Of a stretch of DNA of 64,000 bases, positions 39,814 to 49,987 are shown piece by piece. The stretch spans positions 1-64,000 of the forward strand of contig JAKRSH010000041.1 in assembly GCA_022402465.1 (NCBI GenBank). The letters are read 5' to 3'. This DNA comes from Leptospiraceae bacterium (GTDB taxonomy: Bacteria > Spirochaetota > Leptospiria > Leptospirales > Leptospiraceae). The notes beneath the pieces are model-generated. The model saw only the letters and a list, made by a program, of their open reading frames with translations. It did not search any database and was not told the origin of the DNA. The translations under genes were made by a program, and so were the position numbers. The stretch's first letter is position 1. Each line of letters begins with the position of its first letter.

Positions 39814-41463
39814 GTGATTTCCCACTCGATATTATCCTTATTCCTATTTATAATTTCTCTTTTCCTCTACCGTTATAGTTTTCCTTATCCTGTAGTAGAA
39901 TATCTTTCTATATTTTTTCCATTATTTCTTTTAGGTTTTATTCCCAATTTTTTATACCGAAGGTGGGGTAGAATCTTTACTGTTTGTTTTGCTGTACTTT
40001 TCGTACGCTTTGGTGCCTTAACAGGCGCTCTAACAACCATCCCCGAATGGACGAGTCTTCATCCACTATTTTGGGGAGCAATTCTTGGAATCTTAAGTAG
40101 AGAGCATTTTTTGATTTTCATGGGAAGAGGGAAGCAAGCGGCAGATATTTCTGACAAGGATCCTCTTAGAAGGAGACTCGCTTTGAATCCTAGTCCTGGT
40201 CAGAAACTGCCATATTGGATGGAGCCTGATATCTGGATGGTTTTCTTTCTGTCTATTCTTGTTATTGAGAGAACACTTCATTATTTTCCTTGGAGCTTTG
40301 AGACTGGAATCAACTTTGCGGATGGTTTCTTTATAAAAGGGCTGTCTTACAAGGAAGCCTTTGGTTTGACTTGGATGTATTGGGACAATATAGTCCCCGT
40401 TATATGGTATATCTTTACGGAAGAACGTTGTTCCAGCGATTTGGATAATCCCAATAAACATTGGATCATAGGACTTACTATTGGTTATTTGATCCAAGCT
40501 GTAATTATTTTGGAACAAACATTTCTAAATCCTAATTTACTCATGACGGCAACTGGTGAATCTCTCAAAGTTGGGAGGGTCGCTGGGCTTTGGCGAGATT
40601 CAGGCTCAGCATCCTGGATTATTCCTACTCTTGGTTTGTATCTTGTTTGGAAGGTATGGGAGAGGCGTGGGATATGGAGAGAATCAAGTCGAAGAATTCT
40701 AGCTATCTTCCTCTTGCTGATTACGGGAAGTCTGGGTCTGAAATTAGGAAAGACATTTTGGTTGGCTTATGGAGCTGGCTTATTTGGATTTTTAATCTAT
40801 TTCGTTCTTCGTAGAATTCAACATCCTAATGATTGGATCCAAGGTGCATTTCGTACTTTTGTTATCTTACTTATGTTGAGTTTTGGATTTTCCCTACTTT
40901 GGTTTGGTGAAAATCAAAAGTTAGTTCCTGCTCTCTCTCATGCTAGTTCTCTTCTCAAGAAAACAATTTCTGGTGAGAAATTAGATGATTTAGATCATAG
41001 GAACAAATTAATGCAGGCATCCTTGGATCTGTGGAAGGATTCAATATTTTTCGGAAATGGCTTTGGTTCAATGATAGTTCACCTGAAAGATTTGAAGTCG
41101 CCCATACAGGAACGTCCTAGGAACCATTTTGTTGATACGCCTGCCAATTTTTATTTAGGTTGGTTAGGCGAAACTGGAATCTTAGGCTGCTTACTTCTAG
41201 CTATGTATACTTTTCTTAAGACGTATATAGCTCAAAATGCAAAATATCTATTGCTACTAGTGATTCCATTTATGACGGGTTACCAAATCACCCATGCAGA
41301 TGGGGCATTTGTAGTATTGTTTATACTCTCTGGTACTCGATGCATTGAAAATTCCAGATCTAAGCTATTGAGCAAAGTGGATCTTATGAAAATAATATGG
41401 ATGGTATTTGCAATCGGAATTTCTCTGCATTATTTAGCCTTCGCTATTCTTAAGCACTCCTAA
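39814..41463 (+). CDS. O-antigen ligase/polymerase-like membrane protein
   Basis: 549 residues, about 12 membrane helices. The segment [10 protein letters not shown], then [23 protein letters not shown], matches the Wzy_C/WaaL pattern of a large periplasmic loop followed by a conserved helix. It may join or polymerise surface glycans, but no other glycan genes lie nearby. GTG start. The 3' end overlaps the convergent chemoreceptor gene by 30 bases. Confidence 0.7.
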
Positions 41464-42669
41464 GTATTCATCCGTCTTTGAATTGATTTTTTGTGCAATT
41501 TCGAATACATTATCTGCAAGTTTCGTTATGCCTATTTGCAATTTAGAAATTTCTTTAATTTGGGCTCTAACCCGTTCGGATTGTTCATTGATTGATTCCA
41601 GAGTGTTATTGACAAAGACAATTTCACCATACACTTCGCCTGAGGAATCTTTCACCATGGAAGCAGATTTATCTAATTTCTCGGCTTTTTCTATCACAAC
41701 TCCACCTCTGTTTTTTAATTCAGAGATTGTTTGCACTACTTCTGCTATGGTTCCAGAAATGATATGAATTTCGGAAGAGATAAATTGAAAAGCCTCTCCA
41801 CTTTCCTCACTCACCTTACTTGCGAATTGGTAGTCTTCAATATTGCCCTTCATGAGTTTATTGATTTCTTTTGCTTTTTGGGATGTTAGGATTGCAAGCT
41901 TTTTCATTTCATCAGCGATTACAGCAAAACCTTTGCCTTCGGAGTCAGAATGGCTGGCTTCAATGGCTGCATTGATGGCAAGAAGATTTGTTTCTTTCGT
42001 GATGTTATTGATAAAGTCGATTAGTTTAAGCATGTCATCAGCCTTTTCGCTCACGGACTTAATCAAAGTATTCGTTCTTTGGACTTTCTCGCCACCAGTT
42101 CGACTCATTTGTACGAGATTCTTCATATTTTCGTTTCTCGAATCAATTTCAAAAATAACAGTATTTACTACATCAAACATGAAACGAATTTCTTCAGATG
42201 TCTTTCCCACATCATCCATCAAAGAAACTTCTTGGTTCGCGAGTTGGGTTACGATTTGAAAGATTCTACCCATATCATCATTGGTAGAATGAATCTTTTG
42301 ATCTAACTCCTCAATCTCTGAGGAGATCATTTCAATTTGCTTAAGAACAAGCTTAGTAGAGTCTAGGATTTCATCAATAAAGCCATAGAGATCCAAACCA
42401 TTGCCCATGAGCATCAGAATTGGATCTGGCCTATTATTCAGGGGAATGGCAATAATTTTCAAATATTTATTGCAAATAAAAATTAATACAATTATTATTA
42501 AACCAAGAAAGATAGATGCGTACAGGAAAATATTTTTAGGAACATTGGAAATCTTACCTGATGATTCAAGTATAGCGAAAATTATTGACAGAAAGAGGAT
42601 TGATAAGCTGACCCAATTTATAGTAATGATTTTTTTATGAATTTCGGAAGCTTTTTGAGAATTTTTCAT
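41434..42669 (-). CDS. Methyl-accepting chemotaxis protein without periplasmic domain
   Basis: 411 residues. Two membrane helices close together (about 17-34 and 46-66) leave almost no external domain. No HAMP domain is obvious. The cytoplasmic hairpin has the signalling tip around [18 protein letters not shown] and [15 protein letters not shown]. It probably senses an internal signal or a partner protein. It is transcribed away from the photoactive yellow protein operon, sharing a 73-base intergenic region. Confidence 0.88.
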
Positions 42670-42742
42670 ATTATATTATTGTCTATATATATATCGACTA
42701 GCGTATACACTAATTTGAATGTAAAAAAACCGTGGAGAAAAA

Positions 42743-43126
42743 ATGGTCTTTACTAAAGAAGAGATTTTAGGAAATTTCCCATTCGCAGAAAGATTAAAGC
42801 TAGAGAAAGCTAAATCTCAAAATTCAATCATATATTGGATCAATGAGTTAGTCGCTTCTAATTTTTCAGGAACTGATGATATCCCATCTTTAATTGCTTA
42901 TACAAAAAATGTTACTGAGCAATTAGAGGCTCTCTATGAAGAGAAGGAAAACAGTTCCATTGACTCAGGAGCTTCTATTTTAGAGCAATTAGAGGGACTT
43001 TATAGCGAAAAAGACGAATTGTACGCTCAATTCCCAGGAGTTCATTCCAACCAAGACTTGGTTGATATGATACGTGACATGGAAGCACAGCTCAGTGATT
43101 TATACAAAGAAAAAGAGAAAGTTTAG
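42743..43126 (+). CDS. Small coiled-coil protein upstream of PYP
   Basis: 127 residues, acidic and helical, with heptad-like repeats of LEALYEEK, LEGLYSEKDE and LSDLYKEKEK. No known family. GTGGAG precedes the ATG. It ends eight bases before the PYP gene and is surely co-transcribed with it. It might link the photoreceptor to a chemoreceptor or flagellar partner; that is a guess from position. Confidence 0.7.
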   Translation: MVFTKEEILGNFPFAERLKLEKAKSQNSIIYWINELVASNFSGTDDIPSLIAYTKNVTEQLEALYEEKENSSIDSGASILEQLEGLYSEKDELYAQFPGVHSNQDLVDMIRDMEAQLSDLYKEKEKV

Positions 43127-43134
43127 GAGATACA

Positions 43135-43506
43135 ATGAATACTTTTGTTGATAACGCAATTTTAAACAAACTAGGGAATTTGACTCGAGCAGAAGCAGAT
43201 AATGCGCCTTTCGGAATTATTAAATTAGAGACCGATGGCAAAATTTTACTGTACAATAAGTACGAATCTAATCTAGCCGGTGTTCCCATAGAAAAGGCAG
43301 AAGGGAGAAACTTTTTTACAGATATTGCAGTATGTACAAATAACAGAATTTTCTTTGGAAGATTCAAAGATGGAATCGCTCAAGGAAACTTGGATCTTGT
43401 TTTTAATTACGTATTTACGTACAAAATGAAACCAACAAATGTTGTGATTCATTTGTATTATGACAAAGTTTCTAAAACAAACTGGGTTTTTGTTAAATTT
43501 CGGTAA
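43135..43506 (+). CDS. pyp: Photoactive yellow protein (blue-light PAS photoreceptor)
   Basis: 123 residues, aligned over its whole length with Halorhodospira PYP from memory of that sequence. FFTDIAVCTNNRIFFGRFKD matches the chromophore loop, with Cys67 equal to Cys69. Tyr40 and Glu44 equal Tyr42 and Glu46, which hydrogen-bond the p-coumaroyl chromophore. GNLDLVFNYVF, YKMKPTNV and WVFVK complete the match. Thr50 and Arg52 are replaced by Ala and Val, so colour or kinetics may be shifted. AGGAG lies upstream. Its end overlaps the convergent ACP gene by 14 bases. Confidence 0.92.
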   Translation: MNTFVDNAILNKLGNLTRAEADNAPFGIIKLETDGKILLYNKYESNLAGVPIEKAEGRNFFTDIAVCTNNRIFFGRFKDGIAQGNLDLVFNYVFTYKMKPTNVVIHLYYDKVSKTNWVFVKFR

Positions 43507-43747
43507 TTGAGTAGTATTCACTAAATAAGGTGGCTATTCCTTCTACGGATGCGAAATAGCCACTTTTAGGTAGCTGCTCTTCAATTTCGATACCAAACTC
43601 ATCTTCCAACAACAAAACAAGCTTTTGGTAACCTAGAGAATCTAAGCCATAATCAAAGTGAAGATGCTTTTGGATATCATGGTTTTTAAGATCTATTGCC
43701 AAAGCTTTTTCAACACAGGTAAAGATTCTAGATTGTAAAGAATTCAT
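43493..43747 (-). CDS. Acyl carrier protein
   Basis: 84 residues from the ATG inside the end of the ligase gene; a longer start at 43798 exists. YGLDSLGYQKLVLLLEDEFG contains the phosphopantetheine serine (DSL) and the acidic helix II of carrier proteins. Coupled to the ligase, it probably receives the adenylated acid as a thioester. Its position beside PYP suggests a link to chromophore supply. Confidence 0.82.
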   Translation of the reverse strand: MNSLQSRIFTCVEKALAIDLKNHDIQKHLHFDYGLDSLGYQKLVLLLEDEFGIEIEEQLPKSGYFASVEGIATLFSEYYSITEI

Positions 43748-44924
43748 TTTTTGCTTTTTGGTAATCCTTTTTTCCATTGGGTAGTTTGGGCATTTCATGA
43801 ACCAAGCAGATTTTACTTGGTTGAAAGTGAGCAGGAAGGCTTGAAAGTTTAGCTTGAATAGATTTCAATTCTTTGGTTTTAGTTGGATCTGAAATCAATA
43901 AACCAATTCGGAATTCTCCTTGCTTGGACTTAAAATCAGATATGAGTATTTCTCCTTCTTGCAATAGGGAGGAAATTTCTTGCTCTAAAGAATCCAAATG
44001 AACTCTTTTCCCATTTACTTTTATGATTCTATCCTTCCTTCCTTGGTAGTAGAAAAATCCATCCTTCATTTCACCAGTATCTTTGGTTGCAAAAAAGCCA
44101 TCCTCACTAAGCAGTTCCTTAGCAATAAAAGGGCTCCTGGTATGTAATTCCTGATCTACTAATTTTGTTTCTACACTTGGAAAAAATTGAATTCCATCTT
44201 GAAGAGATGGAGTTCTAAATCCCATACCACCTGTTTCTGTAGATCCATAAATTTCTATAAGCCTAGTATGCCAATCCTGCTCCAAACTGATTGCAAGTTC
44301 AGTTTGAATCCTAGAACCTGAAGTAACTATCACTTGCATATTCTTAGGTTTAATTTCAGAACTTGCACTATAAAGCGATTGAAGGATGGAAGGAACAGAA
44401 ATTAGAAGATTCGCTGATGAATTCAACAATTCTTTTCGTAATTGGGAAAGAGAACTTGTATCTATAACACTTACTTCCAATTCCAGTGGTAAAGCATAAC
44501 TCCATAAAAATCCGTAGATATGACAAAGTGGAATTGAACTTAGAACAGAGTGTATTGTAAATTTTTTGACAAAAGACATTAGTACATTTAGTTCTGTTAA
44601 TATTTCCTTTTCGGACTTAATGAAAATCTTGGCTTCTCCAGTACTTCCTGAAGTTGCAAAACCACATTGGAATCTTGCTATCTCAGAAAGTTTTCTAGGA
44701 TTGTGATGCTTATATTCCGAATTAAGATTAAGTTTAGAGAGGTCCTTAATTTCGATAGAAAACTTATTCTGCCAATACGATACGGCAGATGGATCTACCA
44801 AAATAGGGATTTCACTTCTTTCTATAGATTGTTGAAAATAATTTTCTCGAAAAAACTTTAGGTCTGCAGAATAAAATGCAAATTTATCAGAATTAGAGTG
44901 AGGCTCGAATTTTGAATTTCCCAA
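43728..44924 (-). CDS. Compact AMP-forming acyl-CoA/ACP ligase, possible p-coumarate ligase
   Basis: 398 residues, about 100 shorter than usual at the N terminus. All core motifs are present: [10 protein letters not shown] for [34 protein letters not shown] and the catalytic lysine region [13 protein letters not shown] needs p-coumarate activated as a thioester by a ligase of this superfamily, and this gene and an ACP converge on pyp. The substrate is inferred from context; another aryl or fatty acid is possible. It overlaps the chemoreceptor gene by 32 bases. Confidence 0.78.
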
Positions 44925-46998
44925 TTTCTTTTTGTAAATCTCCAGATATATTATTCATTAATGTCGATACATTCGCTAATTCCTCAGAGGATGCAGATAT
45001 AGTCATAGTTCCATCGGATAGGTCTGTCATCATTATATTCATTTGATCTGTTGATAGTTTTTGTTCTTGGGTGGCAGTTTCAATTTCTGAGGCAAGTTTT
45101 GCAATCTCATCTAGGTTAGCTGAAATATTATTGGAATGCGCCGATTGTTCACTCATTTTTCGAGATAGAATATTAGTCGATTGATCTATAATTTTTATCG
45201 TATCTATAATTTTAACTAAAACTTTAACCGATTGATTCACATTTTTAATTCCATTTTCAACAGACTTCTCCGTGGTGTTGATAAGTCTTTGGATTTCAGA
45301 TACACTTGCCACAGTTCGATCAGCAAGTTTAGAGATTTCTTCAGCAACAACTGCAAAGCCTCTTCCTGCATCACCAGCTCTTGCAGCTTCTATGGATGCA
45401 TTTAATGCTAGTAAATTGGTTTGGTCTGAGATGTCTGAAATGATATCAGCTATTCCGGAAATTTCTTCCGATACAACTCGAATTTCTTCCATAGCGTCCG
45501 TAGTTGCCGCAATACTTTTCTGTCCTTCTTCCGCAGCTCTAGAAGATTCTTCTGCTCTTTCACCTAATTTATGTAAACTTTCATTGATCTCTTGGATGGC
45601 GATAGAAAAGCTTCTTGCATTCTTATCTATATTTGTAATTCCTTTGGTTTCTTTAGAAATTGCATTCGTAACATTTTCGAAAGAAGCAGAAAGTTCCTCC
45701 AAGGAAGCACTTGACTCTTCAGCTCCTGCTGCCTGTGTTTGTGAAGTTTCAGCAAGATTGTTAGCAGAAAGTTCTAGCTCCATAGAAGATGTATTTATTT
45801 GAGTAGTTAAGTTTTGGATTTTAGCCATTATATTTTCTAGCTTATCCATAAAATTATTCACCCAGAAAGATGCCATAGCAATCTCATCCTTGCCATGAAC
45901 TGGAAGTCTAATGGTTAGATCTCCTTCCCCTTCTGCAAGGTCACGTATTCTCTTTTCGATTTGTTGAATAGGTGCAGAAATTGTCCTGACTAAGTAAAGA
46001 ATAAACATCAGTGAAAAAACTAAGATAATACCCGCTATGCTTGCTTGCATGATGGTGCGTTTTCTTAGTAAGGAAATTCTATCTTCTAGGGACGCATATA
46101 AGGAAGGAATGAGCATATCATAAAAGGCATATTGGTGATTCCGAGAATCAGTTGATAGCTTCAACCAATCTTCACGAGTCACAAGCATTTTGTCAGATTC
46201 AAACGACTTTGTTAAAATATTTTCTATGTTTAGATTATCTTGCAGAAAGCTGTCGAATACTGGCTTGAGTAAGGGTTCAAGATTAGGGTTTTCTCTTAAG
46301 ACAAGATTAAATTGACTGATCATATCTTCTTTTAAAGAAATCAATTTAGATTTGAGAATTACCATTTCAAGTTTCTGTGATGCTTGGATCTTATTCTCTA
46401 AGATAGCAATTTCCGCTTCTAAGGAAATTTGGTTGTGTAAGGAGATGAATGCGGGAAATTTTTCTAGAGCCAGAGCCATCATATAATAAGATTTGATATC
46501 TGGATCAAGAATGAGATTCGAATTATTTCCGTTTTCAACAATCAAGTTTTGAGTTGAAGTCAAGAACTCTGCATAAGCAGTCTTGATACCATTGCTTTTT
46601 CTTTCACTACTTTCTTTAAAATTAAGCCATTTCAGTTTCATATCTTCAAATTCTGAATTTAAGGAAAGTGTATCTTTCTTCTCAATAGTAAGAACTTCTA
46701 AACGGGATATGGCTTTGTCTATCCGTCGGATTCTATCTGAATCTTTTAGGAAACTTTCCTCTAAGGGTAGATTGGAAGCTTGGAATCTTAGAGATTTATT
46801 TAAATAATTAGCATCACGAGTAATCAGCGTTATTTGGTGTAAATATGTTGTCCCATCTTTTTCAGCTTCAGCTATACTAATGTCCTTTGACTTTTCAACA
46901 TAGATAAGATATATTAAGAAAAATGTAGGAATAAAAGTTGGGACAATTGCTAGAATTAACTTTTGCCAGATTTTTAGTTTAGAGAGAAAGGTATTCAT
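44893..46998 (-). CDS. Methyl-accepting chemotaxis protein with periplasmic domain
   Basis: 701 residues. Membrane helices at about 12-31 and 317-337 flank a 280-residue helical periplasmic sensor domain. A HAMP domain (around [20 protein letters not shown]) and a long signalling hairpin with [21 protein letters not shown] at its tip follow. It overlaps PrsW-like and ligase genes on both sides, so it forms one minus-strand operon with the ligase and ACP. Confidence 0.93.
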
Positions 46999-48356
46999 TT
47001 TTTAAGAACTCGTTCTATATTTAGTTTCGGCATTTGGAAGGCGTTTTTTAATCTTTGACGAAAAAGTGCAAAATTCCAAAACACAATTAATTTCCATGGG
47101 ATTTTACTAAATTTCACTAAAGCTCCCGAATTACCATCTTCCCCAACTGATTGATCAATCCAATAAATTTCTCCAGGAATATTCGCAATTGATGTACCGG
47201 AAATCCAGAATTCCATACTTACTTGAGATTGGAATTTATCTGGATTTAAGAGTGGAACATAAAAACCTTTTCTAGACAAATAAAAAACAACAGTCATTTC
47301 ATGGTGTTCCTTGGATCTTATATCTAAGGAAACAAAGATTGGAATTCTAAGTACTCTGGTTCTAAAATATTCTGCATTCAAGGTTCCAGAAAAGCTAAGA
47401 ATAAATGAAAGAAAAATAGGATAGAAAACGAAGATACTCATGTATTCAGGAAATTGAATTCCTTGGAATGTCTTAAGTATCATTTCTGGTGAAGCATAAA
47501 AATAGGTTCCAAAAATACATCCCAAAAATAAGAAAAAAAATGAAATAATTAATTTCCAAATCGTTGGTTTTTTAAGAATTGAAACATGTTTTAGATGTAT
47601 TTTTTCTTGGTCAAGATCCATCCAATCTAAATATTGTTTGAATCTAAATATGCTTTTGTAATCATCCCATTTCAATCCAAGTATATCCATTACTTCTCTA
47701 GGAAGTGTATTCTTGGAAATCATTATCTTATATTCTAAGATTGCAAAACCTATGACTAAGATCACAGGCAATAAGTATAAATAATCCAGTGACTTAAAAA
47801 CACTGAAATTATAAAATGCGTGTATTACATAAGTGAATATAAATCCAGTTAATAAATCTAGCACAGGTGTATTGCGAGGATTTGAATTTTCATAAGTCAG
47901 TATGAATGAGCCTAGAATTCCTCCTGAAATCATGTGCAGAGGCAAGGCAGTGGTTGAGCGAACCATCATAGGCCAGAGTTCAAGATTCAATGCATAGAAG
48001 GCAGATTCGATAAGGCCGAAAAACAATCCGAATAGTATCCCATAAAAGATTCCCTCAGCAAGACTGTGTTCAATTTGGTTGGTTCTAAAGAAGATAAAAA
48101 GAAACGCGCATTTTGCAAGTTCTTCAGGTAAGGCAGAGAGAAGGAAGGCTTGAATGATAGCTGATTCACTGTAATCATCTGGGGTTAATGTGTGCAAACT
48201 AATTTCTAGAACAATAGATAGACCAACTGATGATAAGGAATAAAAAAAAGCAACAGATGCTGTCCTAGCATCTAATGAGTTTATAAATATTTTTTTATAG
48301 AATTGATAAAAGGAAAATGCCACCAGGAGACCTGGTAGCATTTTGAAGATAGTCAT
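46995..48356 (-). CDS. PrsW-like membrane protease with an extra C-terminal domain
   Basis: 453 residues. The N-terminal 200 residues carry PrsW motifs: [37 protein letters not shown] and VIHAFYNF. Two further helices follow, then a soluble domain of about 120 residues beginning near [17 protein letters not shown]. That domain has a LSRKGFYV turn, faintly like PilZ but without the exact RxxxR and D/NxSxxG residues. It overlaps the chemoreceptor gene by four bases. Confidence 0.75.
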
Positions 48357-48361
48357 TTTTT

Positions 48362-49987
48362 CTAGTTAGAAAGATGACCATTATTTCTGCGAGTCAAAAA
48401 ATATCCAATAGAAAGTCCTGAGATTAGAAGAAGCATTGCTACAAGCAGCCAATTTTCTTCGGCAGCTTTGGCAAGGTATCCTGCTAGATTTGAATCATCA
48501 GGAAGAGGGAACACTTTGGAAGGATCAGACACATTATTGTACCAAGTTTTGTTTAAACTTCCTTTGCTTGTTGCCCAAGTATTGAACTCTGCATATCCTG
48601 TTTTGGACGCATTTCTGATATCATTTCCTTCTAGAGGCCATTTCCATTTTCCTGGCACTATGATAGCCCAAGGAAAACCTGTGGCATCAAGGAAAGAATC
48701 CTTACCATTGGCATCAAAATACTTTCCAGGCAAGTGGATAAACTTCTTAGTATTAACAACATATATGTAGATGTCATACGGAGAATTCCCTAATGCTGCT
48801 CTTGTTACTGGTTCATTGAATGTGATTTCAAATGAAACTGTGTAACCAAATTTTAAATTGTTTGCATGAGCTGCATTATTGTTAGGAGTGCTTAGAGTTG
48901 TGTTGCTTTCTGGTAGTAATTCGAATCCTTTGCTTAAGTCTGCTGAGGAAAGGTTCAAGGTTACTTCACCTTTATTATTCAAAGTCTTCCCTTTATCATC
49001 GTAGATAACTTTTGTTACTGTGGCACCTGTTCCAGCATTCAATTTAAGGTTTAAGGTATGTCTATAGCCTGCACCACGAGCAACATGTTGGTAGGATCCT
49101 CTAAGCTTTACAATTTTACCTTGAGCGTTCAAATCTTCTTCTGTATTGAAGAACAACACATAATCATTAAGGTCAGCGTCACCTGCATTTGGGAAGAGAT
49201 CTTCAAATGCTATTGTGTTAACTCCAGCTTTTGGAAAGCGAGTCATAGTTGCTCTTGTAGGATCATCAGGATAATCATCACTAGAATTCTCTATCCCATC
49301 TCCGTCATTATCTGCAAAGAACTGAGTAGGATTGTGAGAACCAGATACTACAACATCTCTATCAATTGCTAGCACATCCGCTTGTTGGCCTGTGGTTGGG
49401 TTTGTAGCTGTTGTTGGAATTGTAGTTGTAACTATTTCATTTCCTAAATTGATATTTGCTACTACACTAGTAACTCCATTGCTTACGATAATTGAACCCG
49501 AGGCTGTTCCTGTTGTATCAGTTGTTTGTTGAAAAAGTATATCAGGATTTGTTTCATCTGAAGGGTCTAGTATTGTAACAATTGCACCAGCAACCGGTCC
49601 ATTATCATCATTTACTTGAATCGAGATCGGCACAGTACTGTTGGTCTGAAAGACGAAATCAGAATTTCCAATTACATCTTGGTTGTTCGTTGTTACAGTA
49701 GTAGGCTGGAAAGCAGGCGTTCCTGAGTCAGAAGATTCACTGTTAGCTGATTCTTCATTTGATTCTGTGGATTCTGCTTGAGCTACAGGCAGGTGGATCA
49801 CTGAAGTGTTCTCATCTATCTGTTCTACTTTGCTCCCGTCTGGTGCATTAGTTGCAGTTGAAGCAGCTGCAGAATCTGTATTTCCAGATCCTAATAGACC
49901 GAATAGAAGCCAGAGACCATCTTTCTTTTTATTTGAGCAATTCATCGAAAGGAAAATTGCTAAGGATAGTATTATTACTTGTTTCAT
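48362..49987 (-). CDS. LruC-domain lipoprotein
   Basis: 541 residues, lipobox SMNCSN. A Ser/Thr/Glu-rich linker follows, then an Ig-like region (about 110-215) and an Asp-rich calcium-type loop DNDGDGIENSSDDYPDDP. The LruC domain proper (about 245-470) includes FPKAGVNTIAFEDLFPNAGD and DLNDYVLFF. A C-terminal membrane helix (LLVAMLLLISGLSIGYFL) with RRNN after it is odd for a lipoprotein. LruC proteins are leptospiral surface-associated antigens of unclear role. It ends five bases after the start region of the PrsW-like gene's upstream side. Confidence 0.8.
   Translation of the reverse strand: MKQVIILSLAIFLSMNCSNKKKDGLWLLFGLLGSGNTDSAAASTATNAPDGSKVEQIDENTSVIHLPVAQAESTESNEESANSESSDSGTPAFQPTTVTTNNQDVIGNSDFVFQTNSTVPISIQVNDDNGPVAGAIVTILDPSDETNPDILFQQTTDTTGTASGSIIVSNGVTSVVANINLGNEIVTTTIPTTATNPTTGQQADVLAIDRDVVVSGSHNPTQFFADNDGDGIENSSDDYPDDPTRATMTRFPKAGVNTIAFEDLFPNAGDADLNDYVLFFNTEEDLNAQGKIVKLRGSYQHVARGAGYRHTLNLKLNAGTGATVTKVIYDDKGKTLNNKGEVTLNLSSADLSKGFELLPESNTTLSTPNNNAAHANNLKFGYTVSFEITFNEPVTRAALGNSPYDIYIYVVNTKKFIHLPGKYFDANGKDSFLDATGFPWAIIVPGKWKWPLEGNDIRNASKTGYAEFNTWATSKGSLNKTWYNNVSDPSKVFPLPDDSNLAGYLAKAAEENWLLVAMLLLISGLSIGYFLTRRNNGHLSN

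Follow-up and report, generated by a model that had tools for sequence, protein, structure and literature searches.

A small coiled-coil protein, cc, is the near-exclusive companion of clade-B photoactive yellow proteins (PYPs) and is far better tied to them than is the chemoreceptor encoded beside the PYP gene in the DNA analysed here. The whole stretch, 64,000 nucleotides long and hereafter called the window, is part of one contig (C36) of a 3.99-Mb spirochaete genome in 45 contigs, whose closest searchable relatives are uncultured Leptospiraceae. The cc gene (42743..43126, forward strand, 127 amino acids) was followed by alignments, a 393-genome search and gene neighbourhoods. Every PYP-bearing family member (6/6) has a cc homologue with a conserved N-terminus immediately 5′ of pyp, and the spirochaete search found none in the two PYP-less family members (2/2). 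When cc was the sole query against 393 spirochaete genomes, matches were obtained in 17, of which 16 adjoin pyp and the last is a flagellar hook-type protein (E 5e-5); the genome-level association of cc with pyp has a Fisher p of 3e-21, uncorrected for kinship. Counted by locus, cc is present at 18/18 clade-B spirochaete pyp loci and at 0/9 PYP loci of other types; of these nine, seven fall with the H. halophila PYP in a tree. Weak PYP matches with E > 1e-5 were taken as other PAS domains and excluded from these counts. By association, the link between cc and PYP is strong, and we consider it highly probable.

The identity of the window PYP (43135..43506, forward strand, 123 amino acids) is firm and rests on family models, PDB comparison, alignment and tree placement. 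TIGR02373 (photo_yellow) is its top NCBIfam model at 117 bits (E 4.2e-34), a score under the curated cut-off of 143 bits for a model that has been reported to recover only 20% of PYP homologs (PMC9664959). Against the H. halophila PYP structures, phmmer aligns residues 7-121 with an E of 3e-27, and Tyr40, Glu44 and Cys67 correspond to Tyr42, Glu46 and Cys69, the codon of the chromophore cysteine lying at 43333-43335. The protein joins other Leptospiraceae PYPs (99/99) within clade B of the literature, in a tree that includes the H. halophila PYP. An earlier sequence-only reading, which had called a PYP from its chromophore cysteine, its Tyr and Glu partners and a full-length PAS fold, was thus right on each of these points. 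The PYP of L. biflexa binds p-coumarate and photocycles (457 nm, 0.35 s; PMC12826048), and by analogy the window PYP would be expected to do the same. Two PYPs per genome occur in G089 (L097) and G191 (L095/L096), with tandem cc-pyp pairs in the former. The PYPs of other spirochaete families (L098-L104) group with that of H. halophila and adjoin a short p-coumarate ligase (pCL), without cc, which suggests separate acquisition; most are accompanied by a divergent ammonia-lyase.

The gene layout and coordinates given by the sequence-only reading are correct. The cc gene ends 8 nt upstream of the pyp start in the same operon, chemoreceptor A (41434..42669, reverse strand), described as lacking an external domain, diverges from cc-pyp across a 73-nt gap, and chemoreceptor B (44893..46998, reverse strand) lies in the converging operon. 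Two genes left unmentioned there converge on pyp directly, namely an acyl carrier protein (ACP) gene (43493..43798, reverse strand) and an AMP-forming ligase gene (43728..44924, reverse strand). Together with chemoreceptor B and a PrsW-like membrane protease (46995..48356, reverse strand; PF13367, E 2e-14; 4-nt overlap with the receptor B start), they form an apparent operon with overlapping gene ends that stands tail to tail with pyp. The protease is operon context only; it and a DUF4842 protein gene upstream, in the same apparent operon, span 46995-49987 on the reverse strand. On the other side, an O-antigen-ligase-family gene (39814-41463, forward strand) overlaps the 3′ end of the receptor A gene by 30 nt (41434-41463), tail to tail. 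A promoter scan returned nothing above chance.

The ligase and ACP genes matter more than the chemoreceptor B gene beside them. The ACP, which matches PF00550 (E 5e-7, over the cut-off), NCBIfam ACP models and PDB ACPs, carries a DSL motif with its Ser codon at about 43637-43639; its gene overlaps the pyp 3′ end by 14 nt and may truly start at an ATG at 43747. The top NCBIfam model for the ligase is TIGR02372 (4-coumarate-CoA ligase), and the protein is the best of three matches to this model in the genome, but we do not file it as a member because its 93 bits compare with a curated cut-off of 334.7. A tree of adenylation cores places it with pyp-adjacent short pCLs and ligases of aryl-polyene clusters (99/96), outside the pCL clade, and another ligase tree places it with the short pCLs (99/98). 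It is probably a relative of the PYP coumarate ligase that would activate p-coumarate and work with the adjacent ACP. A single aromatic ammonia-lyase is encoded in the source genome; it lies on contig C27 and has the His-Leu pair associated with tyrosine lyases.

We favour, with some reserve, the ACP and ligase as the loader of the PYP chromophore. Alternatively, the two could serve an unrelated acyl or aryl pathway while another ligase loads PYP, which we consider rather unlikely, though several observations lean that way: the ligase is at most 26% identical to any PYP pCL, scores under the TIGR02372 cut-off, is also basal to the aryl-polyene ligases, and belongs to an operon that opens with DUF4842, PrsW and a receptor. 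Moreover, the window-type ligase was not found in the PYP-bearing relatives, which have a different, long-type pCL instead, and a pCL of that long type may also exist elsewhere in the source genome. Against this, a PYP pCL model is the one that the ligase matches best, no other match to it in the genome is better, and the gene is tail to tail with pyp.

The proposed role as chromophore loader also bears on how the chromophore is delivered. All 14 short PYP ligases compared (L107, L109-L113 and L098-L104 among them) contain DS(L/I/F)E in a carrier-protein-like segment within the N-terminal ~100 amino acids. Pfam does not annotate this segment (best E 0.06), a PDB search with these N-termini found nothing, and a direct comparison of ACP with the pCL N-terminus using five sequences gave no signal; with 14 N-termini, pairwise hhalign against an ACP set that includes E. 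coli and B. subtilis sequences reached an E of only 5e-4, and the best single ACP model an E of 0.003. The resemblance to a carrier protein is suggestive only. It suggests that the window ACP and ligase may be a split form of the same arrangement and that coumarate may come from a carrier; delivery from ACP rather than CoA is proposed on the basis of neighbourhood and tree only.

Chemoreceptor A (MCPsignal, E 1e-25) has two transmembrane helices (residues ~13-38 and 42-78) with a nearly absent loop between them, and a Pfam search recognised neither HAMP nor a sensory domain, so that it belongs to the CetA-like class with a membrane anchor and an MCP signalling domain but no sensory domain. Its signalling tip has diverged, with EASH in place of EAAR and without the usual Arg, which may weaken coupling to CheA. 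The receptor was also considered as an orthologue of the receptors of relatives, but its branch is long and it cannot be placed. Chemoreceptor B, by comparison, has HAMP and MCPsignal domains and ~280 residues, a periplasmic region, between its transmembrane helices; it is probably incidental and not the target of PYP. With 17 MCPs and eight CheW-domain matches in the source genome, the chemotaxis machinery is present.

Of the 18 clade-B loci, four (those of the window, G004 and G007, and one of those in G191) have a chemoreceptor next to cc, in each case one without an external domain; at the other 14, four of which hit a contig end near pyp or cc, none was found beside pyp. The sequence-only reading had named pyp apart from chemotaxis genes in relatives as evidence against its proposal, and this is partly what these loci show, softened by orthologues of the G004 receptor that lie away from pyp in three PYP-bearing relatives (G006, 82%; G005, 43%; G001, 37%). 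In the PYP-less G002 and G003 the best matches are ordinary longer receptors (29-31%), and no close orthologue was found. As receptors adjoin pyp at some loci and have orthologues elsewhere in PYP-bearing relatives, a chemotaxis output is plausible in the family without being a constant feature. Signalling from PYP to receptor A, as proposed earlier, remains the best reading for this genome, with receptor adjacency variable and the idea of a PYP acting through an MCP already published (PMC9664959); that the receptor is the target of PYP seems to us modestly favoured, while coupling of a clade-B PYP photosensory module to chemotaxis in the source organism is, overall, evenly balanced.

The output of PYP, cc and their helical partner (described below) might generally lie outside chemotaxis, with the Leptospira-like receptor incidental or a recent add-on. 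The majority of clade-B loci lacking an adjoining receptor, a single genus in which two genomes have the receptor next to pyp and two do not, response-regulator-like genes near the Rhodothermota loci and the diverged tip of receptor A are all in keeping with such an output. We nevertheless find it doubtful, as a published survey places the Leptospira PYPs always next to receptors without sensory domains (PMC9664959), 5/5 PYP-bearing family relatives have orthologous sensorless receptors and no close one was found in the two PYP-less relatives, and at one locus (L096) receptor, cc, PYP and helical partner follow each other in a row. Light is known to control the swimming of Leptospira kobayashii through a nucleotide second messenger (PMC9043183), and light control of spirochaete motility could run through a photoactivated nucleotide cyclase, with PYP serving something slower; this is improbable in our view, since that study makes no mention of PYP and the two routes are not mutually exclusive. 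A PYP that signals to the sensorless receptor, and to CheA, is the preferred reading for the window.

The composition of cc and its varying arrangement provide a second line of evidence for its tie to PYP. A Leptospiraceae-type N-terminus is followed by repeats of the SxExQLxxLYxEKE type, and the element common to cc proteins is a repeat of ~39 residues with the aligned core SLExQLxxLYxEKExLxxELGVSxxxxLVxMIKSMExQLxDLYxEKE. A structure model built from six sequences is all-helical but of low confidence and poor (pLDDT 52). The gene may lie upstream of pyp, or downstream as a fusion with the helical partner (L095), or may be joined to PYP-like domains without the cysteine. Two Rhodothermota-type genomes from metagenomes (L023 Salinivenus and L024) show the last case: the repeats form long coiled coils with C-terminal PYP-like domains in which Gly, Ala or Ser replaces Cys, and a true PYP is encoded adjacent (fusion genes at L023 6070-7725, L024 6003-7631, L157 7901-10708 and L158 5982-8522). 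In whole-genome searches of these two genomes, which make up the Rhodothermota survey, cc repeats occur at two loci each, and all four are pyp loci. That cc is a generic coiled coil linked to pyp by inherited synteny only, as might be argued from the readiness of coiled coils to match one another and from all cc-linked PYPs falling in one tree group, is very improbable given that its gene order and fusion state differ between lineages, and that the repeat adjoins PYP in two phyla, is also fused to PYP-like domains and was found almost nowhere else in 395 genomes.

Across clade-B loci, PYP and cc are constant and a third component, the helical partner, is frequent. In many clade-B loci its gene, which encodes 138 to 182 amino acids, comes after pyp or the accompanying ligase gene; in L095 it is fused to cc, and in the Rhodothermota loci it diverges from the fusion gene. 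Homology between the spirochaete and Rhodothermota-type partners is supported by hhalign E values of 1e-12 and 5e-18. In the source genome, the partner (138 amino acids, E 6e-32) is alone on contig C13 and unlinked to pyp. AlphaFold predicts a confident helical bundle (pLDDT 92), whose fold has no significant match in the PDB (best E 1.6).

From these observations we infer that the core of the system is PYP with cc, often joined by the helical partner, and that the receptor is a lineage-specific output; PYP most likely signals via cc, which in this genome would act on the sensorless receptor and CheA. In the source organism, p-coumarate would probably come from the ammonia-lyase on contig C27, be activated by the ligase and pass, probably through the adjacent ACP, to Cys67 of PYP, which would then undergo a photocycle driven by blue light, as demonstrated for L. 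biflexa PYP. PYP would be held by the repeat-built coiled coil of cc, aided by the helical bundle protein encoded elsewhere, and cc would relay the light-driven change to the coiled coil in the cytoplasmic part of receptor A, to CheA and to the motor. A broader and distinctly tentative proposal is that clade-B PYPs share an undescribed complex, in which PYP docks on the repeat-built coiled coil and helical bundle. In Rhodothermota-type genomes, the PYP domain without chromophore that is carried by the coiled coil would pair with true PYP, and light would alter their contact. In parallel, the chromophore would come from a carrier-protein thioester (a separate ACP here, a carrier-like N-terminal domain in canonical pCLs) and not from free CoA.

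Few photoreceptors have been studied as thoroughly as PYP, and a 2025 survey names its signal chain, with the signalling partner unknown, as the main gap (PMC12826048). Both cc and the helical protein accompany an entire clade of PYPs in two phyla, and cc is in addition fused to PYP-like domains, which makes the two families specific candidates for the link between PYP and the cell. The ACP and ligase pair raises the question whether PYP receives its chromophore from a carrier protein. Phototaxis through PYP and a receptor has already been proposed for Leptospira by analogy with CetA/CetB (PMC9664959), and the value of the present analysis lies in the conserved partners. The word "coiled" is absent from the main texts of the 2022 and 2025 surveys (PMC9664959; PMC12826048); as coverage is that of these two main texts, priority for cc is not certain.

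Among known systems, the canonical pyp-pcl-tal cluster (TIGR02372 ligase; e.g., Indioceanicola profundi) likewise has PYP near a ligase with a related adenylation core, but in the window the ACP has a gene of its own next to that of the ligase, the two genes run towards pyp, and the lyase gene lies on a different contig. Aryl-polyene starter ligase clusters (e.g., L114, L117 and L118) resemble the window in having an AMP ligase beside ACP genes, in some cases with an ammonia-lyase, and their ligases group with that of the window, whereas no ketosynthase or dehydratase is among the genes examined at the window locus. The PYP companions described in the 2025 survey are pCL, TAL, GGDEF/EAL, kinases and MCP fusions (PMC12826048); in the last of these, PYP is wired to a chemoreceptor signalling domain, while the window has separate genes and a coiled-coil protein. 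In Campylobacter, the soluble PAS protein CetB signals to a separate receptor, CetA, much as proposed for the window, but CetB binds FAD and senses redox, and the text of the 2022 survey names no counterpart of cc (PMC9664959). Another close system is that of Leptospira in the same survey, where clade-B PYPs always adjoin chemoreceptors with transmembrane regions and without sensory domains, as in the window; to that published description, whose text leaves them unmentioned, the window adds cc, the helical partner and the ACP and ligase pair.
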